Shown here one piece after another: positions 2,124-13,964 of a stretch of DNA of 14,295 bases. The translations under genes were made by a program, and so were the position numbers. Source of the stretch: an uncultured Collinsella sp. (GTDB lineage: Bacteria > Actinomycetota > Coriobacteriia > Coriobacteriales > Coriobacteriaceae); NCBI GenBank assembly GCA_902475865.1, contig CABSBK010000005.1:1-14295 (forward strand), given 5' to 3'. Within the stretch, counting starts at the first letter, position 1. Every line of letters begins with the position of its first letter. A model generated the notes under the pieces. It made no database searches. It was not told the origin of the DNA and was given only the letters and a program-made list of their open reading frames with translations.

Positions 2124-5011
2124 TTGAGGACGCCGTATCTCCTGGAACGCCGCAGTTTGTCATCGATTCTTACGCCACGCTCGCCGAGCGCGCTAAGACG
2201 CAGTCGTTTGGCCTCATCGAGGAGGACGTAATCGTCCTCGATACCGAGACCACGGGTCTTTCGGTGCAGGACAACGAGTTAATTGAGATTTCCGCGGCCC
2301 GCCTTTCGGGCCGCGAGGTCATTGACCGCTTTGATACGTTCGTGCATCCCAAGCAGCTAATTCCTGCAGAGATTACCGAGCTTACGAGTATTACGAACGC
2401 CGATGTGGCAGATGCTCCGTCGGCCGTCGAGGCCGTCGCGGCACTCGCCGACTTTGTAGGCGGCTGTCCTGTTATCGCGCATAACGCCACGTTTGACCGG
2501 TCGTTCATCGAATCGGTCAAGGGCGGCGTCAACGTGAGTGATATCTGGATCGATTCGCTGGCGCTATCGCGCATTGCGCTTCCGCGCCTGATATCGCACA
2601 AACTGTCCTTTATGGCCGACTTGTTTGGGTGCGATTCGGTGTCGCACCGTGCGAACGCCGACGTTGATGCCCTGTGCGGCGTGTGGCGCGTGCTGTTGGT
2701 CGCACTTACCGACCTGCCTTCGGGCCTTATGGCGCGCATGGCGGACATGCACGCGGACGTGCCTTGGTCCTATCGCCCCATTTTTTCCTTTTTGGCTGGC
2801 CAGAATCCAGGTTCGATATTTTCGCTCAGCGCCGCTCGTGCCGATGTGCTCAAGGCCGATCGCGCAGGCGATCGCGTTGATGCGGACGAGTTGTCGGTCC
2901 TTAAGATGCCGAGCCGTGAAGAGATCGAGGCAGATTACGCCCCCGGCGGCCTGGTCAATCGTATGTACCCCACCTATGAGCCGCGCGACGAGCAGATCGC
3001 GATGGCGGTTGAGGTGCGCGATGCGCTGGTCACGGGTACCCATCGCGTGATCGAGGCGGGCACGGGCGTCGGTAAGTCGATGGCCTATCTCGTGCCCTTC
3101 GCCGAGGCCGCCCGCCGAAACAACATTACCGTCGGCATCGCGACCAAATCGAATAATCTTGCCGACCAGCTTATGTACCATGAGCTGCCAAAGCTCGCCG
3201 AACAGCTGGACGGGGGCCTGTCATTTTGTGCGCTCAAGGGCTATGACCACTATCCGTGTCTGCGCAAGCTCGAGCGCATGAGCCGTAGTCAGATTGAGAT
3301 CACCACCAAGCGCGATCCTGCTGACACGCTCACGGCGGTTGCGGTGATCATGGCGTATGTGTGCCAATCTGCCGATGGCGACCTCGATTCACTCGGCATT
3401 CGCTGGCGCAGCGTCAACCGTCCCGACTTTACGACGGCTTCGCGCGAGTGTGCTCGTCGTCTGTGTCCGTTCTTCCCTGACAAATGCCTGGTCCACGGGG
3501 CGCGCCGCCGTGCGGCACATGCCGACGTGGTGGTTACCAACCATTCCCTGCTGTTCCGCAACGTGGCCGCCGAGGGAAGGATTTTGCCTCCGATTCGTCA
3601 CTGGGTGGTCGATGAGGCCCATTCCATCGAGCGTGAGGCTCGTCGCCAATGGGCGCGCGTGGTTTCGGCAGATGAGTCGCGCGTGCTGTTTGAGCGCTTG
3701 GGTGGGTCGAGTGCCGGCGCGCTGAGTCAGGTTTCCCGAGATTTGGCCACTTCCGAGGGCTCCACGCTCTACCTGGGACTCACCGCCAAAGCAACGTCGA
3801 CGGTTGCCCGCGCGAGCATGGCGATTGCCGATGTGTTCGATGGCGTGCGCGAGCTTGGCCGCCGTGCCCGCGGGGGCTATGACAACGCGAATCTGTGGAT
3901 TGGTCCCGAGCTGCGCGAGTCGGATGACTGGCACGATTTTTTGCAGTCGGCCTATACCGCAATTGATGCACTGGACCAGGCGGATAAAAGCGTAGACGCG
4001 CTGGTGCAAGCTGTCGCTGCCGATAAGCCCGAGGTCGTCGTTGACCTGGGCGACATTTCGCGCCGTCTGCACGAGTTGGTCGAGAATCTCAAGCTCATCA
4101 TTGAGGGTACGGATGAGCACTATGTGTACTCACTGCAGGTTAACCGCCGGCTGCGAGCGGGCGGGGAGTCTATGACCGCCGAGCGCATCGACATCGGCGA
4201 GGCCTTGGCGAACGAGTGGCTGCCCGAGGTGCACACAGCCATCTTCGCTTCGGCGACCATGACGGTGTCTAAGAGCTTTGAGCACTTCAACCATGCCGTC
4301 GGCCTCGATCGCATCGGTGCGTCGACATCCTCATCGCTACACCTGGATTCGAGCTATGACTTTGACTCGAATATGGCCGTGGTTGTGGCGGGGGACATTC
4401 CTGATCCGCGCGATCGCGAGCGCTATCTGTCGGCGCTCGAGCGTGTGCTGGTCGATGCCCATTTCGCCATGGGTGGATCGGTGCTCACGCTCTTCACCAA
4501 CAGGCGCGATATGGAGGACCTGTATGCCCGCGTCGAGCCCAAATTGGCGCGAGCGGGCCTGGAGCTCAATTGCCAGCAACGCAACTCGTCCCCGCGTCGC
4601 CTGCGCGATCGGTTTATCAACGAGCCGACTTCATCGCTCTTTGCGCTCAAGGCCTTTTGGGAGGGCTTTGACGCCAGCGGCGAGACACTGCGTTGCGTCA
4701 TTATCCCCAAGCTGCCGTTCTCGAGCCCCACGGATCCTCTTTCGTGTGAGCGCAACCTGCGCGAGGACCGCGCTTGGGCGCGCTACTCGCTGCCCGAGGC
4801 GGTGCTCGAAGTCAAGCAGGCCGCCGGCCGTCTCATCCGCTCGTCGACTGATTGCGGCGTGCTCATCTTGGCAGATCCGCGCTTGGTGACAAAGGGCTAC
4901 GGTAAGAAGTTCTTGACGTCGCTGCCCACGACTTCCTACCAGCGTATCGAGTCGGCGCAGATCGGTCATTATTTGCAGCTGTGGCGTGCACGCCACGAGC
5001 GACGCCGTTAA
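2117..5011 (+). CDS. dinG: DinG-family protein: DEDDh exonuclease fused to an Fe-S-type DNA helicase
   Basis: 964 residues. Role inferred from the family: 5'-3' unwinding of forked DNA, D-loops or R-loops during repair, plus 3'-5' exonuclease trimming. Exonuclease domain (about 35-200): DTETTG (D42, E44), HNATFD (D127) and H177-x4-D182, a complete DEDDh set. Helicase domain (about 280-964): Walker A GTGVGKS (K320), TKSNNLADQL, VVTNHSLLF, Walker B VVDEAH (499-502), TLFTNRRDMEDLY, FWEGFD and motif VI QAAGRLIR (901-908). Four cysteines, C381, C445, C450 and C457, are spaced like the Fe-S ligands of E. coli DinG. Start choice: ATG 2117 overlaps the ddl stop (ATGCTAA), implying coupled translation. 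An in-frame ATG at 2072 would lie deep inside ddl and is less likely. The stop is shared in TTAA with the convergent WYL gene. The exonuclease fusion resembles Gram-positive DinG (YpvA) rather than E. coli DinG. Confidence 0.93.
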   Translation: MLIEDAVSPGTPQFVIDSYATLAERAKTQSFGLIEEDVIVLDTETTGLSVQDNELIEISAARLSGREVIDRFDTFVHPKQLIPAEITELTSITNADVADAPSAVEAVAALADFVGGCPVIAHNATFDRSFIESVKGGVNVSDIWIDSLALSRIALPRLISHKLSFMADLFGCDSVSHRANADVDALCGVWRVLLVALTDLPSGLMARMADMHADVPWSYRPIFSFLAGQNPGSIFSLSAARADVLKADRAGDRVDADELSVLKMPSREEIEADYAPGGLVNRMYPTYEPRDEQIAMAVEVRDALVTGTHRVIEAGTGVGKSMAYLVPFAEAARRNNITVGIATKSNNLADQLMYHELPKLAEQLDGGLSFCALKGYDHYPCLRKLERMSRSQIEITTKRDPADTLTAVAVIMAYVCQSADGDLDSLGIRWRSVNRPDFTTASRECARRLCPFFPDKCLVHGARRRAAHADVVVTNHSLLFRNVAAEGRILPPIRHWVVDEAHSIEREARRQWARVVSADESRVLFERLGGSSAGALSQVSRDLATSEGSTLYLGLTAKATSTVARASMAIADVFDGVRELGRRARGGYDNANLWIGPELRESDDWHDFLQSAYTAIDALDQADKSVDALVQAVAADKPEVVVDLGDISRRLHELVENLKLIIEGTDEHYVYSLQVNRRLRAGGESMTAERIDIGEALANEWLPEVHTAIFASATMTVSKSFEHFNHAVGLDRIGASTSSSLHLDSSYDFDSNMAVVVAGDIPDPRDRERYLSALERVLVDAHFAMGGSVLTLFTNRRDMEDLYARVEPKLARAGLELNCQQRNSSPRRLRDRFINEPTSSLFALKAFWEGFDASGETLRCVIIPKLPFSSPTDPLSCERNLREDRAWARYSLPEAVLEVKQAAGRLIRSSTDCGVLILADPRLVTKGYGKKFLTSLPTTSYQRIESAQIGHYLQLWRARHERRR

Positions 5012-5925
5012 AGCGGGCAGGTCAGGCTCTTCGCCATATCGCATAGACGCTTTGCCGAGGCGGGGTCATCCAGTATGCGGATGGCTCCGCCCGCTGCGAT
5101 TACCTGGCAGAACAGCCAGTGCTCTGACCCATAACGCACGGTCACCGTCGCCATGTCTGCCCCGTTTGGCTCAATCGACATGATGCCGGCCCAGTCTAGG
5201 CGCTCTGCCATGTCGAGCGGCATGAGGAGTTTTGCGCTCTGCTCCGCTTGGGAAAGGGATTCGTGGAGGGACGAGGACACGGATGTGTGGCGCTCCACAG
5301 AATCGTCGGTAAGGGCAAGGCCTTCGATTTTGTCCATGCGGTAGGAGCGCTGCGCATCAACTTCGACATCCCAGGCAATCAGATATGTTTGGTCGCCATG
5401 CGTCGCGATGCGCAGGGGGTCGATGAGACGCTCACGCGGCCGTGTGTCGTCCATCGAACGGTAGATGATGCGGCATCGAACGCCGTCTTGAATCGCGCAG
5501 TTCAGCTGTTGCCAGTGCGATCCTCGGGCAACGGTATCGACGACGCGCTGGTTGTAGCCGAGTTTCTCGGGTAGGAGGGCGTGTCGGATACGCTCTGCTG
5601 CCCGAGAGTCGATTCCCATCGATTCGAGTTCGTGGTTGAGCACGGCACCTTCGGCGGCACTTAGGCGCAAGGGCAGCACACGCCCCGCATCGCCTGTCAG
5701 GATGATGCACTCGCCGTGGCGTTCGCAGATGATGCGTGCGCCCGACTCACGGTCAGCGAGGGTCGAGACGATATCGATAATTTCGTCGAGCGCCGCACCC
5801 GTGATATCAAAACGGCTGCAGATATCCCCTCGTGTCATACCGGTCTCACCGGCAGCGTAGAGGGCCTCCATGATGTCAATCGCACGCGAGAGCCTTTGCT
5901 CGCTGGTGAGTTTACGCGCGGGCAT
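5008..5925 (-). CDS. WYL-domain transcriptional regulator, PafC-like
   Basis: 305 residues, cytoplasmic DNA-binding regulator. Visible order: N-terminal winged-helix region (about 8-60, RLSRAIDIMEAL then TRGDICSRFDITGAALDEII); a linker with PLRLSAAEGAVL (85-96), typical of PafC-like proteins; a WYL domain (about 145-205) with IDPLRIATHG, TYLIAW (the WYL triplet is TYL, 180-182) and RSYRMDKI (193-200); and a C-terminal WCX-like region (about 225-305). In mycobacteria PafB and PafC act together as a DNA-damage-responsive activator, and WYL domains sense nucleic-acid ligands. That role here is inference from fold and order. Start: ATG 5925 is chosen because it overlaps the upstream WYL gene by 14 bases; its AAAGGA is rather far (12 bases), so translation is probably coupled. 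An in-frame ATG at 5985 lies inside the upstream gene. Confidence 0.85.
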   Translation of the reverse strand: MPARKLTSEQRLSRAIDIMEALYAAGETGMTRGDICSRFDITGAALDEIIDIVSTLADRESGARIICERHGECIILTGDAGRVLPLRLSAAEGAVLNHELESMGIDSRAAERIRHALLPEKLGYNQRVVDTVARGSHWQQLNCAIQDGVRCRIIYRSMDDTRPRERLIDPLRIATHGDQTYLIAWDVEVDAQRSYRMDKIEGLALTDDSVERHTSVSSSLHESLSQAEQSAKLLMPLDMAERLDWAGIMSIEPNGADMATVTVRYGSEHWLFCQVIAAGGAIRILDDPASAKRLCDMAKSLTCPL

Positions 5926-6934
5926 GCTCGTGCACCGTCCTTTCGATGAGGTGGTTCCACGCCAGTTTAAGTGCATCGGGGGCAACGGGTCTCATGCCGT
6001 CCATGGCGTGCTCCATACAAAACGAGGCAGCGGCATTAAGGTCGCGCACGCCGACGGTCCAGGTCCAACCCTCTTCGGTGTGCGTGAGCTCCCCGCGACC
6101 GCGCGTTAGGCCGCTGACCATGTCGGCCTGGGCTTGCGGGGCAAACGAAAAGGTCGCCATAACGGGCTTGCAATCGGCAAAATCAAACTCAAAGAACAGG
6201 CGATCGTTCAGGTTAAAGTCGGCGGGGATGGAGTAGGCCTTCGAGGGGCGCCATGCGCGAACGATACGGTCGCAGCGAAACGTCCTGATTTCATCGGTGG
6301 CGTTGTCGAGTCCGCAAAAATACGCCACACCCTCGTGCTCAAACATGCCGTATACGCAGACGGTGCGCTCTTTTTGCTCCCCGTGCCCGTTTTGATACAA
6401 AAAGCGCAGTGCGCAGCGTTCGGCGAAAGCGCTCCACACTGCATCGACGGCGGGTAAGCGACGGGCGGGAGGCTCTTCTGCGGTCGATGCGCCGGTGAGG
6501 TAGGCGATCTTGGAGCGTATGTCTGCAAGCGGCGTGGCAAACGCGGCCGAACCGGTCGCAAGGGTCTGGTCGATAGCGTCGAGCAAGATGTCCGCGTCGT
6601 CTGCGGTGATGAGGCCACCGGCCGCAAACGTGTGCTCGCGATCGATGGTCCACGCGCTTTCTTCGGTTTCTTGGGCGCCTGCTGCGCGAACTTCCTTGAT
6701 CGTGATTCCGCGTTCGAGGAGTTTTTCGCGATCGCGGCGAAACTTGCGCTTGTCCGAGTCGATATTGCCCGACCCATAGCCAAGATCGGAATCCAGGACA
6801 ATTTGCTCTGTGGTCAATGGCTCGGGAGAGCTGTTGAGGACAAAGAACAGATTGAGGATGCGCTGGGCGGTCTTGTCGAAACCGGGTTCCGGCACCCCAT
6901 TTTTATTCGTTACGGTTGTATCGCTTGCCGTCAT
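5912..6934 (-). CDS. WYL-domain transcriptional regulator, PafB-like
   Basis: 340 residues, first gene of the two-gene WYL operon. N-terminal helix-turn-helix region (about 20-85): AQRILNLFFVLNSSPEPLTT, then KRKFRRDREKLLERGITI, which closely follows the PafB pattern of a helix-turn-helix and a charged FxRDxxxLxxxGI helix. WYL domain (about 165-230): LRFLYQNG, a degenerate WYL triplet in VAYFCGL (203-209), and EIRTFRCDRI (215-224), the usual RxFRxDRI strand. The C-terminal WCX-like region ends at 340. Start: ATG 6934 has GAGG five bases upstream. The in-frame ATG at 6967 has no convincing ribosome site and would leave almost no leader below the putative promoter. Ligand and targets cannot be read from the sequence. 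No proteasome or pup genes are nearby, unlike mycobacterial pafBC. Confidence 0.83.
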   Translation of the reverse strand: MTASDTTVTNKNGVPEPGFDKTAQRILNLFFVLNSSPEPLTTEQIVLDSDLGYGSGNIDSDKRKFRRDREKLLERGITIKEVRAAGAQETEESAWTIDREHTFAAGGLITADDADILLDAIDQTLATGSAAFATPLADIRSKIAYLTGASTAEEPPARRLPAVDAVWSAFAERCALRFLYQNGHGEQKERTVCVYGMFEHEGVAYFCGLDNATDEIRTFRCDRIVRAWRPSKAYSIPADFNLNDRLFFEFDFADCKPVMATFSFAPQAQADMVSGLTRGRGELTHTEEGWTWTVGVRDLNAAASFCMEHAMDGMRPVAPDALKLAWNHLIERTVHEHARA

Positions 6935-6992
6935 AGAATCCTCGCATGGGAAGGTGTTTGATGCCATGATTTTAGTCCGATATGGAGATTAG

Positions 6993-7131: not shown

Positions 7132-10100
7132 ATGGCGAACACCCAGAACTATATTAACCACCTGTTGCAGAACACTGGCATCACGCCGGCGTGCAGCGAA
7201 GAAGAGCGCTTGGCTGCCGAAGATATCGCTCAAATTTTCCGCAACCACGGCTTTGATCCCGAGGTGCAGGAGTTTAATGCTCCCGCGCCGAGCAGGATGG
7301 CGTTTGCCGTTACGGGCATTCTGGCATTTGCCGGTGCCCTGCTTATGGGCATCGGTGGCGGTATCGGCTTAGTCGGCACCCTGTTGGCCATTGTCGGAGC
7401 CGTGCTCTATGTGCTCGAGCGAACCGGGCGCCCCGTGATCTCGCGCCTGGGCAAGACGGGCGTGAGCCAAAATGTCATCGCCTATCACAAGGCCTCTGGT
7501 CCGCTTGCCTCTCCGCGCAATCGCCCGGTTGTCGTCGTCGCGCACTATGACTCCCCGCGCGCCGAACTGCTCGCTCGCGAGCCCTATGCGCCGTACCGAG
7601 CGCTGATCGCCAAATTGTTCCCGATTGCCACGATTGCTCCCGCGGCTATTGCCATCCTGCGCATCTTGCCGCTTCCCGGCGCGTTGAAGGTCCTGCTGTG
7701 GATTGCCGCGATCCTTGCCTCCCTCGTGGCGCTCGCCAATGCCGCCAATATCATTTCCAATCGTTTTGTCCTTCCCTACACGTCCGGCTCGGTTTGCAAC
7801 AAGTCCTCTGTTGCCGCCATGCTGGGTGTCATGGATAACGTCGCCCCCTATCAGGGCGAGAACGAGTTCCCTGACGATATTCCGTTTGACACGTATTTTG
7901 GCGAGCAGAAGCGTCGCGCCGAGGAGATGGCGCGCGCGGCGGCCGAGTACGCCGCGGCCCAGCAGCAAAACGATTACGGCAATACCATCGAGTACGAAGA
8001 GCCTGCCTATACCGAGGATGAGTATGGCCAGCCGGTCGCTCCCGAGGGTGAGCAGGGCGAGGCTTTTGATGAGCAAATCGATGGATTCGAAGGTGCTTCT
8101 GCCGACGAGACCCTGATTGGCGTCATTGCACCCGAGTCCCAGGTCCAAGATATTCCGGCCGAGGAGCCCGTTGCAGACGAGTCCGCTGCCGAGTCGGCAG
8201 AGGAGCCTACCGCGGCCGAGCAGGCCGAGCCCGAGCCCAAGCTTTATCGCAATGCCGCCGGCAACATCCGGTTTGGCTCGGATGCCATCCGTGCCCTGGG
8301 AATGCTTCCCGAGTCCTGTACGCTCGATTACGAAGAGGGCGAGGAGCCGACGTTCGAGCCCGCGCCCCAGCCCGATCCGGTCGTGGCTGCACAGCCCGAT
8401 GAGGCCAATGCCGTCGAGACGGAAGCCGATGCGGAGACTGTTATCGATCCCGCAGCCGGTCTGGACGTCATGGCGCCTGCCCCGGCGCCCGAGGAGCTCG
8501 ATAATACCGAGGACGACTACGATGCGTATCCGCAGCGTGTGTCCTACGAGAGCGACACCGATTTTTCTGCCGAGCTTCCGGTGACGACGCCCCATGCCGA
8601 TATCGCTTCCGCGTTTTCTTCGATCGGTGCCAGCGCCTCCCATTTCTTTAAGGGGGCATTCGAAAAGGGCAAGAAACTCGTTGACGACTTTGAGGAAAAG
8701 CGCGTCGCTGCCCGCGAGGCAGCCGAGCGCGAGGCCGCAGCCCAGCAACAGGCGGCCGAGGCCGAGCGCGAGCGCGCGGCACAGGAATTTGAGCAAAACG
8801 ACGCCGAGCAGCCGGTATCGCCGGTATCCGTTGATGTTGCCGACGCCACGACGTCTTTCGAGGCGCCGCAGCCTTCGCCTGCGGAAGTTGCCGGGGAGAC
8901 GGTGACTTTCGAAACCCAACAGCCAGTCGACAGCACTGTGTCGTTTGATGCCACGATGACGTTTGAGAAGCAGGGCACCGCTATCGCCGAGCCCCTTTCC
9001 GCTCCTGTCGAGGACGAGCCCGCTGCGCCCGATACGGTCGAGGATCAATCTGCGGCGGAACAGGTCGCTGCGGACAGCTCCGAGCAAGAGCCTGAGCCCG
9101 TGGCCCCCGAAGCTCCGCAGGCGGATGAGTCGAGGCCCTACTCTACGCAGATCTTCACCATGCCCGCGCCGAGTGATCCCGGCGCCACGGTTGCCAACGC
9201 TGCTCCGTCGCAGGCCGAGACGGTCGATGCTCTGATGGCTCAGATCTCGTCTCAGGCGTCGCCGCGCCCGAACATGAACGTTCCCGACCCGGCATCCGCG
9301 CCGACTCCCATGCCCTCTGCGTCTCCGCTGGCCTCGGTCCCCGATCCCTCGATGCCTTCGATGCAGCAGGCCAATGTCGCCTCGCGCACCTCGCTGTTCG
9401 ACCTTCCCGACCCTTCGGCTCAGGTCAACGATCCCTTCGCGACGGCACAGGGTCCCGAGCCCATATCGGCTCCGGTTGTTCCTCCCATGCCGGCCACCTC
9501 GGATGTTCAGCCGCTTGAGACTATCTCGGCTCCTGCCGCTCCGGCCGCCAAGCCGCAAAAGCGCGGCTTGGGCGGTCTGTTCGGTCGCAAAAAGAAAAAC
9601 GAGCAGGACAGCATGAGCGATTGGCTTGGTGTCGAGGATGATTACGACGCCAAGAAGTCTGGTCGCGGTATCGGCTCGTGGGATAACTTCGAGGATGACG
9701 ACGACGGCTGGAAGGGCGGTGCCACGTCTTCCGATGGAGCTTCCGCCGAGGATATGCTCGCTGCCGTTGCCTCCATGGGCGATGACGAGCTGCTTGGCCA
9801 CGACATCTGGTTTGTGGCTACAGGCGCTTCCGATTGCGACGGCGCCGGCATGAAGGCGTTCCTGGCCGCGCATCGCGACAAGCTCCGCGGCGTGTTCTTT
9901 ATCAACCTTGAGTCCATTGGTGCCGGTAGGCTTTCGGTCGTGACGGTCGAGGGCGAGCAGCAGCTGCTCAAGGGTGACCGACGCATCATGAACTTGGTCA
10001 ACAAGGTGTGCAAGTCGTTCCATGTCGATTGCGGTGCATTTGAGATGCCCTATGCCAAGACCGATGCCTATGCTGCTCTCGAGGCAAGCCGACGCGCCCT

Positions 10101-10230
10101 TACCATTGCCGGCGTCGACGGCCCACGTTTGGCATGCGCTCACACTGAGGACGATCTGCCGTACAACGTCAATCCGACAAATATCGCTACGGTGTCCGAG
10201 GTCGTGACCGAGGTCATTCGTCGTTCGTAG
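7132..10230 (+). CDS. Membrane protein with a split, degenerate M28 peptidase fold and a long acidic insert
   Basis: 1032 residues. Residues 1-55 match an M28 N-terminus (EEERLAAEDIAQIFRNHGF). Four hydrophobic segments follow as two hairpins (about 57-76/78-95 and 162-180/187-205), with VVVVAHYDSPRAE (H138, D140) between them. SVCNKSSVAAMLGVMD (220-235) matches the M28 helix that normally begins GxxDNxSG, but here the bridging Asp is replaced by C222. About 650 residues of Ala/Glu/Pro/Asp-rich sequence follow. The second half resumes at 890: DIWFVATGASDCDGAG (the usual Glu-Glu is missing), FINLESIG (NLD has become NLE927), and AHTEDDLPYNVNP (H1004 kept). The family norm is a 300-500-residue di-zinc aminopeptidase; here activity is doubtful or altered. 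No signal peptide; both hairpins place the soluble parts in the cytoplasm. Start: ATG 7132 has GGAG five bases upstream, and an in-frame ATG at 6982 has no support. It is followed 21 bases later by a small membrane-protein gene. Confidence 0.8.
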   Translation: MANTQNYINHLLQNTGITPACSEEERLAAEDIAQIFRNHGFDPEVQEFNAPAPSRMAFAVTGILAFAGALLMGIGGGIGLVGTLLAIVGAVLYVLERTGRPVISRLGKTGVSQNVIAYHKASGPLASPRNRPVVVVAHYDSPRAELLAREPYAPYRALIAKLFPIATIAPAAIAILRILPLPGALKVLLWIAAILASLVALANAANIISNRFVLPYTSGSVCNKSSVAAMLGVMDNVAPYQGENEFPDDIPFDTYFGEQKRRAEEMARAAAEYAAAQQQNDYGNTIEYEEPAYTEDEYGQPVAPEGEQGEAFDEQIDGFEGASADETLIGVIAPESQVQDIPAEEPVADESAAESAEEPTAAEQAEPEPKLYRNAAGNIRFGSDAIRALGMLPESCTLDYEEGEEPTFEPAPQPDPVVAAQPDEANAVETEADAETVIDPAAGLDVMAPAPAPEELDNTEDDYDAYPQRVSYESDTDFSAELPVTTPHADIASAFSSIGASASHFFKGAFEKGKKLVDDFEEKRVAAREAAEREAAAQQQAAEAERERAAQEFEQNDAEQPVSPVSVDVADATTSFEAPQPSPAEVAGETVTFETQQPVDSTVSFDATMTFEKQGTAIAEPLSAPVEDEPAAPDTVEDQSAAEQVAADSSEQEPEPVAPEAPQADESRPYSTQIFTMPAPSDPGATVANAAPSQAETVDALMAQISSQASPRPNMNVPDPASAPTPMPSASPLASVPDPSMPSMQQANVASRTSLFDLPDPSAQVNDPFATAQGPEPISAPVVPPMPATSDVQPLETISAPAAPAAKPQKRGLGGLFGRKKKNEQDSMSDWLGVEDDYDAKKSGRGIGSWDNFEDDDDGWKGGATSSDGASAEDMLAAVASMGDDELLGHDIWFVATGASDCDGAGMKAFLAAHRDKLRGVFFINLESIGAGRLSVVTVEGEQQLLKGDRRIMNLVNKVCKSFHVDCGAFEMPYAKTDAYAALEASRRALTIAGVDGPRLACAHTEDDLPYNVNPTNIATVSEVVTEVIRRS
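7834..9786 (+). other. Low-complexity acidic linker inside the M28-like protein
   Basis: Encodes residues about 235-885, rich in Ala, Glu, Pro and Asp and probably disordered. Distinct islands stand out. RNAAGNIRFGSDAIRALGM (373-391) looks like a short folded or conserved motif. A charged heptad-like stretch (about 507-556, many Glu/Arg/Ala/Gln) is probably coiled coil. Six T-x-x-F motifs start at T573, T590, T602, T608, T672 and T753. KRGLGGLFGRKKKN (810-823) is strongly basic, and a run of aspartates follows just before the second peptidase half. The frame stays open with the same codon bias as the flanks, so this is real coding sequence and not an assembly join. Confidence 0.75.
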
Positions 10231-10490: not shown

Positions 10491-10526
10491 AAGAGGCGAG
10501 CCGGGAGACGGGCTCGCCTCTTTTTT
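10491..10526 (+). terminator. Rho-independent terminator after the M28-like operon
   Basis: A perfect 12-bp stem (AAGAGGCGAGCC at 10491-10502 with GGCTCGCCTCTT at 10511-10522) and an 8-base loop run into a T tract ending at 10526. It sits between two convergent genes. On the minus strand the hairpin is followed by a weaker T-rich TTATTCGTT, so it may also end the adhesin transcript. Confidence 0.93.
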
Positions 10527-10532
10527 ATTGCG

Positions 10533-13500
10533 TCAGCGACGTTTTGACGCCAGCTTTAGATGGGCAAACCAGATTGCCGCGGCGCCGGAGGTCACGAAGG
10601 CGGTGAGGCAGGCGGCAATGGGAAGGGAGCCCGTTGCCGGTAAATCTTGCGGCATGGCGCATCGCTGGATGACGCGATCCTCGTCATGTGATTCAAGGTT
10701 GCTACCGCCGCCATTGCGACAGAGGTCAACGCGAGCGCTGTTGGCGAGTGCGGTCTGAGGCGTGTAAGACGACGCGGCCTGCATATGGATGACGGCACCG
10801 TGAATATCCGAGTCAAGGACGGCGCTCACATCATCAAGGTCGTCATGCTCGTCTTTGAGGTCCTCGCGGGTCCAAGATTCTGCAGCGCCTCTTGTCGTGA
10901 AGTCGGCCGATACGGCCCCGTACTCAAGACGAATGCCCGTGACGGCGGTATCGTCCAAAAGAGCGAGCTCTTTTGCCTCGAGGGTGACCGACTCCGTTGT
11001 TGGGATATCGGCTTTCCAAAGATGCCAATCGCCGTAATCGACCATGCGCAAATCGTCACCTAGGAGCTTTTTGACCTCGTCCGTTTCGAGCCAGGGGTTG
11101 TCATGCCCGTCGCTGAGCGTTGCATTGGTCTGTTCGCCCGTATCGATACTTCCCACTGGAGACGTTCGATACCACACGTTGCAAAGACCGTCGATGTCCC
11201 CGGTCGCGACAGGGGTTTCGATGGCGATGAGTTTGGCAGTGCCTTCCTTGGCGCATTCGAGATCGTCAGTGATGGTGAATTCATCAACCCAGGTATTCGA
11301 CTCATTTTTAGCATCGAGCGTATAAGAGAAGGAGCCGTCCGCATCGGATTGTGCCACGGCTCGGTTTTTGCCATCGCCGTTGGCGACGAGACCCTTACCG
11401 ATAGGGCGGGCGATCTCTTGCCGCTTGTCGACTCTGCCCTCGATCTCGATGGGTGCGTCCTTCATGGTTACCGTCTGCACTTCTCCTGTGGCCTTAATTT
11501 CAAACGTCATGTCTTCGGCAAGGTCGTAAGTGCGCGGGGGCATCACTTCGCACAGGGTGTAGGTGCCGGGCAAAAGATGCTCGATGCGATGCGGTTTGTC
11601 AGAGGAGGTCCAAGCGTCAATTTCGGTTCCGTCGGCACCGTGGAGGGAGAGCCGAGCGCCTTCCACTTCTTGTTTGCCGGTCAAATCTACTTTGGAGATG
11701 TCGATTTTGGTGTAGTCGTTAGAAACATCGAGGTGCGCATTGATCACGGGTGTTTCCTGACCGGCATACGACAGCTCGACGGTGTGGACGCTTTGGTCGA
11801 GCAGGTAACCTTCGGGTGCCTGCACCTCGATTACCTCATAGGTGGCGGTTCCGCACCCCAGTGAAAGATGAGTCGCGCACGCAAATCCCCGCTCGTCGGT
11901 CGTGATGGATGTGACGGTTTCGCCGTCCAGGGCAGCAATGCTGCCGTCGGGGCGCACGATATCGCCCGCGGCACGGATATCAAAAACAGCACCGGCAAGG
12001 GCGCGCCCACCTACGGCATCGTTCTTGACGATCTCGATGCTTCCTGTTGCCGCGTCGTCGTAAAACGAGGCGACCGCGACGGGCGTTAAGTTCATGTCGG
12101 CGGGAATCGTTATCTCCAGATCTTCACCAACAAGATACGGTTCCTTGGCGGAAGTCTCTCGTATGTAATACGTGCCCGGGTTAAGCGATTCGGGTAGGGT
12201 GACGGTGCCGGTTTCATCGGTCGTAAAGGTATTCATAACGGTATGGGCGGGATGCCAGGATGTTTGCGAGATGGGCTCACGGTCGCCGTTGAGCAGCTGA
12301 AAGGTGAACCCAGCGCGTGGTACGGCGTTGCCGGTCTGAGCATCGCGCTTCACGATTTGAAGATGTGTCGACAGGGCGTGGTTGTCTACGATGTACTGAA
12401 GCTCTGCGCCGTCCGTGATCTGCTCTGCTGTGATAGTCCATTCCCCTGCCTGCTTAAAGCCGTCGGGCACAGTGTCGACAACCTCACGAATGGTGTAGCC
12501 GGCACGGTCATACGGTATGGTTCCGCTGACGCCATCGGGGCGCTCTCCTGCGCCAAACCATGCTCCGGCCTGGTCTTTGGTCGATGCGAAGCCGTAGATA
12601 TTGGTGGTCAGCGTTCCAACAACCTGCTGCGAAGTGTTGCTTGCCACTTCAAAGACCACGCCTTCCGCCGGCTGCTCTACACCAGATTCGTCACTATTAC
12701 CGCAGTCCTTGAACTTTGAAATCTCGAGGTCAAAAGCGATGGGGATGTTGGGGATGCGACGCTCGAGTTCAACGACGCCCGCGTCTCCGAGCTGGTCGGC
12801 ACCGATGGTATAGCTCCAGGTTTCATTGGAGGGCAGATAACCCTCGGGAGCTCTCGACTCATAGATGCTAAAGGTGCCCAGGGGGATGTCGGTAAGTGTT
12901 GCCCGGCCGTCCTCATCCGTCGTGAGGGTGTGCGTCCAGCCCGGGGTAGACTGTGAGACGCAGGTGAACTCAGCGCCGGCAAGTGACGCGCTGACTTGAG
13001 GGCCTGCCCCTGTCGCGGCATCGACCTTTGCGATGCGCAGGGTAATGGTACCGGGCTGCTCATCGATGACGACATTCCCGCCGTCATTGCCGGTGGAAAA
13101 GGCGATGTGGTCACTCCTGGGGATATAACCCGCCGGAGCTTTGGTTTCGACCAGGTAATATGCCGCGTTGGGCAAAAGTGTCGCCTGCGCACGACCGCTG
13201 CTGTCCATCTGGATGCTGCCGACACGCTTGTCGCCGACGCTCTCATAGATGTCGAACCTCGCTCCGTCGAGCCTGTAGGTATCGTTTTCGCTCGTGATGG
13301 CGGCGTTGGCTGACTGTTTTTGGAAGGATACGGAGACGGCCGGGAGCACGTAGAGCATGTCTTGACGTTTACTGCCGTCCGACACAGCTCCCAAATAGCG
13401 CCGCGCGCGATGCGGTGCGGCTTTAATGCTTCCCGACTTGGCGCCGTCGTGGAGCCAGCGCGCTGCGGCAACGACCTCATTGTCGCCGGAAAAATTTCCC

Positions 13501-13964
13501 CTCTCTGTGACGCCCCGGGCGGTTGTATATGAGAATGATCCGTCGGTATGGGTGGTGCCGTTGAGCATCCAGACGGCAAGTTGGGTTGCGGCACGTGCTC
13601 GATCGGGGGATAGGTTATGCCCGCCAAAGGATGTGGCGGTGGGGTAGCCATGACAGATGATGGCCGCGAATTCGTCTTCGAGCCATACCCAGCCCTGATT
13701 GTAGGTGAGCCAGGGTCCGCCCGGTGTGCTAGGGCCAAAGCGCTCCTGGTTCATGCAGTAGGCAATCGAAGAATCCTGTGCCTCGTATTTGCCAACTTCA
13801 AAAGGACCGCATTCATTGCTGATAGTGCGGAATCCGAGCGATTCATAACCGTCGACGGCGAGCGCGGCATCCGGTGTCATGCAGCCTAAAAGTAAAAAGA
13901 GGACTAGGAGCAGCGATCCTGCTGTGATTGCGCTGTGGACAGAGTGCGTGGGTGCGTTGGACAT
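10533..13964 (-). CDS. LPXTG-anchored thioester/isopeptide surface adhesin
   Basis: 1143 residues. Order: signal peptide (hydrophobic core about 17-27, likely cut after ALA at 36); a thioester (TQXA) domain (about 40-208) with C70 in AYCM and Q128 in ATQLAVW, the pair that forms the thioester in this family; six SpaA/CnaB-like domains (about 211-840); a fimbrial-type stalk domain starting VDKRQEI (845) with FSYTLDAKNESNTWVDEF; then LPATG (1108-1112), a hydrophobic span and the tail KLASKRR. The family binds host surfaces covalently through the thioester, and the Ig-like stalk is stiffened by isopeptide bonds; attachment is by a sortase. No sortase is in the window. Start: ATG 13964 has AAGGAG (13970-13975) five bases upstream, and an in-frame TAA four codons earlier excludes a longer form. 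The n-region has no Lys or Arg, which is unusual. The LLGC at 25-28 resembles a lipobox. Convergent with the M28-like operon. Confidence 0.93.
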   Translation of the reverse strand: MSNAPTHSVHSAITAGSLLLVLFLLLGCMTPDAALAVDGYESLGFRTISNECGPFEVGKYEAQDSSIAYCMNQERFGPSTPGGPWLTYNQGWVWLEDEFAAIICHGYPTATSFGGHNLSPDRARAATQLAVWMLNGTTHTDGSFSYTTARGVTERGNFSGDNEVVAAARWLHDGAKSGSIKAAPHRARRYLGAVSDGSKRQDMLYVLPAVSVSFQKQSANAAITSENDTYRLDGARFDIYESVGDKRVGSIQMDSSGRAQATLLPNAAYYLVETKAPAGYIPRSDHIAFSTGNDGGNVVIDEQPGTITLRIAKVDAATGAGPQVSASLAGAEFTCVSQSTPGWTHTLTTDEDGRATLTDIPLGTFSIYESRAPEGYLPSNETWSYTIGADQLGDAGVVELERRIPNIPIAFDLEISKFKDCGNSDESGVEQPAEGVVFEVASNTSQQVVGTLTTNIYGFASTKDQAGAWFGAGERPDGVSGTIPYDRAGYTIREVVDTVPDGFKQAGEWTITAEQITDGAELQYIVDNHALSTHLQIVKRDAQTGNAVPRAGFTFQLLNGDREPISQTSWHPAHTVMNTFTTDETGTVTLPESLNPGTYYIRETSAKEPYLVGEDLEITIPADMNLTPVAVASFYDDAATGSIEIVKNDAVGGRALAGAVFDIRAAGDIVRPDGSIAALDGETVTSITTDERGFACATHLSLGCGTATYEVIEVQAPEGYLLDQSVHTVELSYAGQETPVINAHLDVSNDYTKIDISKVDLTGKQEVEGARLSLHGADGTEIDAWTSSDKPHRIEHLLPGTYTLCEVMPPRTYDLAEDMTFEIKATGEVQTVTMKDAPIEIEGRVDKRQEIARPIGKGLVANGDGKNRAVAQSDADGSFSYTLDAKNESNTWVDEFTITDDLECAKEGTAKLIAIETPVATGDIDGLCNVWYRTSPVGSIDTGEQTNATLSDGHDNPWLETDEVKKLLGDDLRMVDYGDWHLWKADIPTTESVTLEAKELALLDDTAVTGIRLEYGAVSADFTTRGAAESWTREDLKDEHDDLDDVSAVLDSDIHGAVIHMQAASSYTPQTALANSARVDLCRNGGGSNLESHDEDRVIQRCAMPQDLPATGSLPIAACLTAFVTSGAAAIWFAHLKLASKRR
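10536..10643 (-). other. Sortase cell-wall sorting signal
   Basis: Encodes residues 1108-1143: LPATG, a hydrophobic stretch of about 20 residues (including LPIAACLTAFVTSGAAAIWF) and a basic tail (KLASKRR). This is a classical class-A type sorting signal; cleavage between Thr and Gly is expected. Confidence 0.93.
11445..13334 (-). repeat. Six tandem SpaA/CnaB-like domains
   Basis: Encodes residues about 211-840. Each domain has a strand with the bond-forming lysine (K216, K313, K417, K539, K647, K758), an E-box ending in a catalytic Glu (E273, E369, E494, E603, E713, E806), and a terminal Asp or Asn (D301, N406, N528 or D527, D636, N742, D836). The repeats are related but divergent at the sequence level, so recombination between them is not obvious. 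Confidence 0.85.
13341..13847 (-). other. Thioester (TQXA) domain coding segment
   Basis: Encodes residues about 40-208 of the adhesin. C70 (SSIAYCMNQERFGP) and Q128 (AATQLAVWML) match the Cys and the TQxA-motif Gln that cross-link in thioester-domain adhesins of Gram-positive bacteria. Conserved aromatic-rich segments (PWLTYNQGWVWLED and ARWLHDG) fit the fold. Confidence 0.85.

Follow-up and report, generated by a model that had tools for sequence, protein, structure and literature searches.

Among the M28 enzymes of solved structure, LapB (5gne), the aminopeptidase of Aeromonas proteolytica (1amp) and BSAP of Bacillus subtilis (6hc6) are soluble proteins that are not known to carry the two membrane hairpins or the long insert. 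The catalytic glutamate of this family adjoins a ligand glutamate, and corresponds to Glu151 in AAP. M28-like folds are also found in eukaryotic non-peptidases: nicalin (of the BOS complex), nicastrin and the transferrin receptor function as subunits of membrane complexes or as a receptor. These proteins are luminal or extracellular and are not known to have a disordered split. The zinc ligands of M28 enzymes, referred to below as sites 1 to 5, are His, Asp, Glu, Asp and His, as given for PaAP in PMC11313473. In PMC7522609, one zinc is held by sites 2, 3 and 5 and the second by sites 1, 2 and 4, with the glutaminyl cyclases described as single-zinc M28 proteins using sites 2, 3 and 5. PMC7505659 describes nicalin as having been modelled on nicastrin.

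The window analysed here is a stretch of 14,295 nucleotides from an uncultured Collinsella sp. It contains a gene whose product has an M28 fold that differs from the enzymes above in its membrane helices, its insert and its active site.

Gene layout and membrane topology

The gene and its parts are as follows.

7132..10230, plus strand: whole gene, encoding a putative membrane M28-fold pseudo-peptidase of 1032 amino acids; one open frame, with both halves also held by relatives
7132..7851, plus strand: N-terminal half of the M28 domain, residues 1-240 (BLASTP to the uninterrupted relative P0242; AF2; VIA-align)
7291..7422, plus strand: membrane hairpin 1, helices 54-72 and 76-97 (AF2; hydropathy)
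7588..7770, plus strand: membrane hairpin 2, helices 153-177 and 183-213 (AF2; hydropathy)
7852..9726, plus strand: acidic, mostly disordered insert, residues 241-865 (AF2; P0242 has a loop of about 4 residues there)
9727..10227, plus strand: C-terminal half of the M28 domain, residues 866-1032 (Pfam PF04389; AF2; VIA-align; BLASTP to P0242)
10491..10522, plus strand: terminator-like hairpin and T run 3′ of the gene (pattern match; two such matches in the region against a shuffle average of 3.2)

The two halves pack as a single M28 alpha/beta fold in the AF2 model and in structure alignment with VIA-align, the model being weak at residues 861-900, where the insert rejoins the fold. Both halves are collinear with the uninterrupted P0242 by BLASTP. 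An M28 fold split by a disordered acidic insert and accompanied by four helices had been proposed in a preliminary description of this DNA; it is confirmed by AF2, BLASTP and VIA-align, and structure prediction returned the single domain that was then in question. The fusion of two unrelated domains is ruled out by the contiguous relative and the single-fold model. The expectation that each half would match M28 by profile held in part. The C-terminal half matches PF04389 at 32.1 bits (cut-off 21.3), a match that covers this half only, and the N-terminal half alone has no match in Pfam. The whole protein found no match among PDB sequences at E 10 or better and none in NCBIfam.

In the P0242 model, a helix ends at residue 233 and the next strand starts at residue 238, so the insert occupies the short loop before the strand of the catalytic Glu pair. 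The insert contains 129 acidic and 34 basic residues, giving a net charge of -95. The features of the ortholog group of Coriobacteriia membrane M28 proteins are all present in the window: a single frame, the N-terminal half, an insert with WLGV...IGSWDNF...WKGG and the C-terminal half. The genome G001 (71% shared words) was used as a stand-in for the window's own genome, and a profile search found no second strong M28 protein in it. Two weak matches in G001, at 22.8 and 19.9 bits against the cut-off of 21.3, are probably relatives of other peptidase families.

All four helices have a mean hydropathy of at least 1.0 in the window. The same four-helix test is passed by 116 of 126 rows from the window's order, 159 of 208 other class rows and 64 of 67 uninterrupted rows. 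The helices are ancestral and older than the insert, because uninterrupted relatives with intact sites carry them; that they belong to the novelty, as the preliminary description implied, is not supported. The positive-inside rule would put both M28 halves, together with the insert, in the cytoplasm, a prediction of moderate strength. In 402 of 402 rows, lysine and arginine are more numerous on the M28 side than in the outer loops, but counted over flanks of unequal size (about 47 residues on the M28 side versus 10 outside). Normalised per residue, the difference is evident in rows of the order (0.11 on the M28 side versus 0.00 outside) and small in the groups outside it. R177 and K186 of the window lie within the set helix limits and hence are not part of this tally.

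Occurrence, insert motifs and gene neighbourhood

Searches with the window protein detected the gene in 190 of 197 Coriobacteriia genomes, including 170 of 170 good ones; the seven class genomes without a match are 59-86% complete. Among the relatives, it was detected in 57 of 58 genomes (48 of 48 good ones). These counts rule out that the window protein is a lone oddity, and the layout first taken for a singleton is that of a conserved gene. Locus retrieval from mostly already-positive genomes yielded a match in 30 of 30 and 27 of 30, figures that are not independent of the class survey; the three genomes without a match (G044, G069 and G148) had none there either. In a draw from the phylum, 42 of 246 genomes match an intact relative, 21 of the 42 belonging to the class, and the non-class matches examined (L074, L087, L090) are uninterrupted. 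Within open-licence PMC, strict search terms returned no paper about this protein and no essentiality study of a relevant genus, as judged by title or the start of the abstract.

The row set used for comparison began with 430 frames holding both halves, of which 406 passed a coverage and duplicate-locus filter and 401 were distinct and counted; many loci had lost one half at the end of a contig or locus and so are uncounted. The 203 class rows outside the degenerate clade (see below) consist of 168 database proteins, which came from intact-query searches and are biased toward intact sites, and 35 sampled-genome rows, which were picked regardless of site state. The window's family is f1, probably Coriobacteriaceae, while f5 comprises Atopobiaceae (Olsenella, Parafannyhessea) of the same order; 78 named loci all carry a provisional f5 label, several with titles that give just a higher rank or Coriobacteriaceae. 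When taken between two profile positions, with a scale offset of about 25 residues, the median insert length is 222.5 in the 168 database class proteins, 684 in 23 f1 proteins, 661 in 17 of f2 and 428 in 75 of f5. Inserts of 85 to 341 are found in five rows of the degenerate clade that lie outside the order (f11, f13, f14), so growth has not occurred in every branch.

Three motif regions are distinguished in the insert.

9622..9723, plus strand: class-wide insert motif WLGVEDDYDAKKSGRGIGSWDNFEDDDDGWKGGA (residues 831-864), with a basic stretch before it (profile and pattern searches)
9394..9417, plus strand: LFDLPDPS motif (residues 755-762); the pattern is in 21 of 23 f1 and 68 of 75 f5 rows, and in 0 of 296 other rows tallied
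8848..8967, plus strand: four copies of T-x-(S/T)-F-(D/E) (residues 573-612; pattern count)

Across the motif, from W831 to A864, eleven columns are invariant among twelve examples chosen from eleven families. A profile built from these examples matched 17 of 17 class genomes, with a single hit per genome that always lay within the M28 gene, and matched 0 of 5 genomes outside the class. The pattern G.W(D/E).F is found in all 23 f1 rows, 15 of 17 f2 rows and 165 of 168 database class rows, in just 13 of 75 f5 and 2 of 12 f12 rows, and in none of the 67 uninterrupted rows. The motif is independent of catalysis, because it is common to intact and degenerate members. Its use as a wider docking module was rejected, since no second copy was found at E 0.1 or better across the 17 class genomes. 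Of the 15 nearest relatives (L001-L015), 14 carry three to four copies of the T-x-(S/T)-F-(D/E) repeat, against shuffle means of 0.03-0.06 there, and the repeat could represent an array of phosphosites. It was rejected as a general feature, being absent from 8 of 23 f1 sequences.

Upstream of the gene lie two recurrent neighbours.

5008-5985 and 5912-6967, minus strand: two overlapping WYL-domain regulators, divergent from the M28 gene and found as neighbours in many families of the class

This regulator pair is taken by us to be PafBC-like. Divergent WYL-regulator genes recur upstream of the M28 gene in the class along with a helicase gene, which is presumably DinG-like. At eight loci of f2, f4, f6, f8, f9 and f10, a single-pass membrane protein is encoded directly upstream of the M28 gene, and coordinates show the same arrangement in five f11, f13 and f14 genomes. 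This protein (L035:2258-3502, L049:6847-8238 and relatives) has no Pfam or NCBIfam match. It occurs in 47 of 79 class genomes (10 of 12 for f2, 0 of 8 for f5 and 0 of 13 for f1), and nonetheless at two f5 loci, L122 and L133. It may be a partner in families other than the window's; as a required partner it is ruled out for f1 by the 0 of 13 genomes. When ten recurrent neighbour clusters were compared with Pfam, the only peptidase was of the M23 type, near intact-site members.

Genes for TrkA-type regulators of potassium uptake (L035:6836-7501 and relatives), often in tandem, are located directly downstream in several families. The window also encodes a 1143-amino acid surface protein (10533-13964, minus strand) with a thioester (TED) domain, five SpaA-type stretches and LPATG near the C-terminus, a putative adhesin or pilus-tip type protein.

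Active site and order of events

The site positions of the window are as follows.

7543..7551, plus strand: H138-Y139-D140; zinc site 1 His and HxD Asp both retained (site alignment)
7795..7797, plus strand: C222, replacing the bridging zinc-ligand Asp (site 2); Cys in 23 of 23 f1 sequences
9829..9834, plus strand: S900-D901 at the Glu pair, with Ser for the catalytic residue and Asp for the ligand of zinc site 3 (site alignment)
9910..9912, plus strand: E927, replacing the zinc-ligand Asp of site 4 (site alignment)
10141..10143, plus strand: H1004, zinc site 5; Arg in 14 of 23 f1 sequences

Two of the five ligand positions (H138, C222, D901, E927 and H1004) are canonical, and all five hold metal-capable side chains (H, C, D, E, H). 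All seven canonical residues are present in 65 of 67 uninterrupted rows and, among class rows, in 190 of the 203 that fall outside the degenerate clade and in 0 of the 131 that belong to it. For the sampled-genome rows outside the clade, the five ligands are canonical in 33 of 35 and all seven residues in 27 of 35. Within f1, H138 is kept in 23 of 23 sequences and E927 in 22 of 23, so that C222 and E927, the substitutions remarked on earlier, are conserved. Position 900 is Ser in 22 of the 23 and Thr in one, and H1004 is replaced by Arg or Tyr in 16. D140 is retained in all 131 degenerate-clade sequences. In f2, Glu stands at position 900 in 15 of 17 sequences; the general base was therefore kept or regained in that family. 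Judging from these residues, normal M28 catalysis has very probably been lost in the window protein. A pseudo-peptidase or altered site reused as a scaffold had been suggested at the outset: the loss of the site is borne out by the counts above, and the scaffold is the best inference.

In 6 of 12 rows of family f12 (e.g., L072, L073, L179), Lys takes the place of the catalytic Glu while every ligand is conserved. This is a second change of the catalytic residue, separate from that of the degenerate clade.

Trees were built with the uninterrupted set as outgroup. In the careful 66-row tree, which has the seven site columns masked and is without the long-branch rows L038, L045, L046, L198 (the sole f14 row) and L224, a single branch separates the 33 degenerate rows from all others (support 100/99, recovered in 200 of 200 bootstrap trees). 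A quick 112-row tree with those five rows included agrees (SH-aLRT 100, 55 rows), and in it isolated ligand losses outside the clade are seen in L190, L188 and P0226. Parsimony on the 66-row tree gives 2 to 9 changes per site. According to the tree, the insert is older than the site loss.

The degenerate M28 fold is under purifying selection. Omega values are approximate, because dS is 0.7-1.1 for the three large regions; against 14 relatives (L002-L015; about 85% identity, close to one another and non-independent) they are 0.032-0.050 for the N-terminal half, 0.019-0.031 for the C-terminal half and 0.115-0.147 for the insert, whose stretch 815-855 gives 0 to 0.027. Against eight more distant f1 relatives, omega reaches 0.12-0.33 in the halves and 0.25-0.45 in the insert. 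A site that is very probably dead inside a little-changing fold therefore points to a pseudoenzyme in use and not to decay.

Interpretation and comparison with known systems

On balance, the window protein is probably a non-catalytic membrane pseudo-peptidase that serves as a scaffold, with its loop binding a partner via the motif. It descends from a four-helix, membrane-anchored M28 aminopeptidase with two zinc ions, whose peptidase domain probably faced the cytoplasm. A motif-bearing disordered loop was inserted just before the strand of the catalytic Glu pair in the common ancestor of the sampled Coriobacteriia. The site then decayed in one clade, to which the window's order belongs, while the gene was retained and the loop mostly lengthened. 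Today, the M28 fold and hairpins would fix the acidic loop by both its ends to the inner face of the membrane, and the conserved loop motifs would recruit a putative partner. Several points count against the scaffold. G.W(D/E).F is missing from 62 of 75 f5 and 10 of 12 f12 rows, so the motif is not universal; the window's family lacks the upstream membrane protein seen elsewhere (0 of 13); the topology argument depends on short outer loops; and metal-capable residues at all five zinc positions make a changed metal site possible by sequence.

More tentatively, and with some doubt as to the whole, the protein could form the core of a membrane hub, so far undescribed, in the class Coriobacteriia. 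An M28 enzyme would have gained a disordered loop with its own docking motif, and docking would have become the main function. One clade would then have dropped catalysis, retaining a remnant one-metal site in some families. The loop would mostly have lengthened, and several families would have put the gene directly behind the unannotated single-pass membrane protein. On this reading, the presence of the gene in nearly all genomes would suggest that it matters for growth in these bacteria.

The other explanations begin from the same residues. It is rather unlikely that H138, C222 and E927 (sites 1, 2 and 4) still coordinate a single metal, in a structural or sensing role or for a new reaction, the general base and zinc sites 3 and 5 having been lost. 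This would suit the lopsided loss in the clade: 91 of 131 sequences keep residues able to bind metal at sites 1, 2 and 4 (H; D or C; D or E), versus only 16 of 131 at sites 2, 3 and 5, and the former trio is present in 22 of 23 f1 sequences. A single-zinc precedent exists in the glutaminyl cyclases, but at sites 2, 3 and 5 (PMC7522609); the window has residues that could bind there (C222, D901, H1004), but the last is Arg in 14 of 23 f1 sequences. However, 82 of the 91 trios stem from two families (60 from f5 and 22 from f1) and therefore reflect few independent events, and f2 keeps the gene with the trio in just 3 of 17. An enzyme with a rebuilt active site, acting as a hydrolase or transferase, would draw on the possible ligands at all five window positions, on the invariant D140 (131 of 131) and on Glu at position 900 in 15 of 17 f2 sequences. 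It is very unlikely, as the catalytic Glu has become Ser or Thr in 23 of 23 f1 sequences, H1004 has become Arg or Tyr in 16 of 23, and the families of the clade differ in letters at the same sites, unlike a conserved enzyme.

The dead cleft might instead bind N-termini, so that the protein would act as a peptide-binding receptor or inhibitor controlling another protease or a membrane protein. In favour of this, constraint is stronger on the M28 halves than on the insert, so that the fold itself would do more than anchor. This explanation is nevertheless improbable, since the cleft residues vary between families and the sole neighbour peptidase is the M23 type near intact-site members. A decaying gene, or a chance fusion of unrelated domains, would be in keeping with the drift of site letters between families, but is next to impossible with an omega of about 0.03, an uninterrupted frame, presence in 170 of 170 good class genomes and a single M28 fold.

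Compared with LapB, 1amp and BSAP, the window protein is without the catalytic Glu and has three ligands changed. The membrane M28 proteins of other Actinomycetota (P0242-P0308, L074, L087) share the four-helix layout and have halves collinear with those of the window. They differ in having no insert, in the motif pattern (0 of 67) and in keeping all seven residues (65 of 67); where named, they are called “M28 family peptidase” or “Zn-dependent exopeptidase M28”. A fold search with the window model returned entries of the BOS/multipass translocon (9c7u_A and 7tm3_7, E 0.004), chains that we take to be nicalin, and a search with the uninterrupted model returned the transferrin receptor (6okd_B). 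The likeness to nicalin, nicastrin and the transferrin receptor is that of an M28-like fold in a membrane setting, with no evidence of direct descent.

A graded series is thus found in one bacterial protein, from active-looking forms with no insert, through active-looking forms with a short insert, to dead forms with a mostly longer one. The intermediate stages are alive in the class and its neighbours, and the order of events in the birth of a pseudoenzyme is therefore testable. Non-catalytic M28 folds that serve as subunits of membrane complexes are, to our knowledge, known from eukaryotes, and this class-wide bacterial case offers a good starting point in the search for a new membrane complex.
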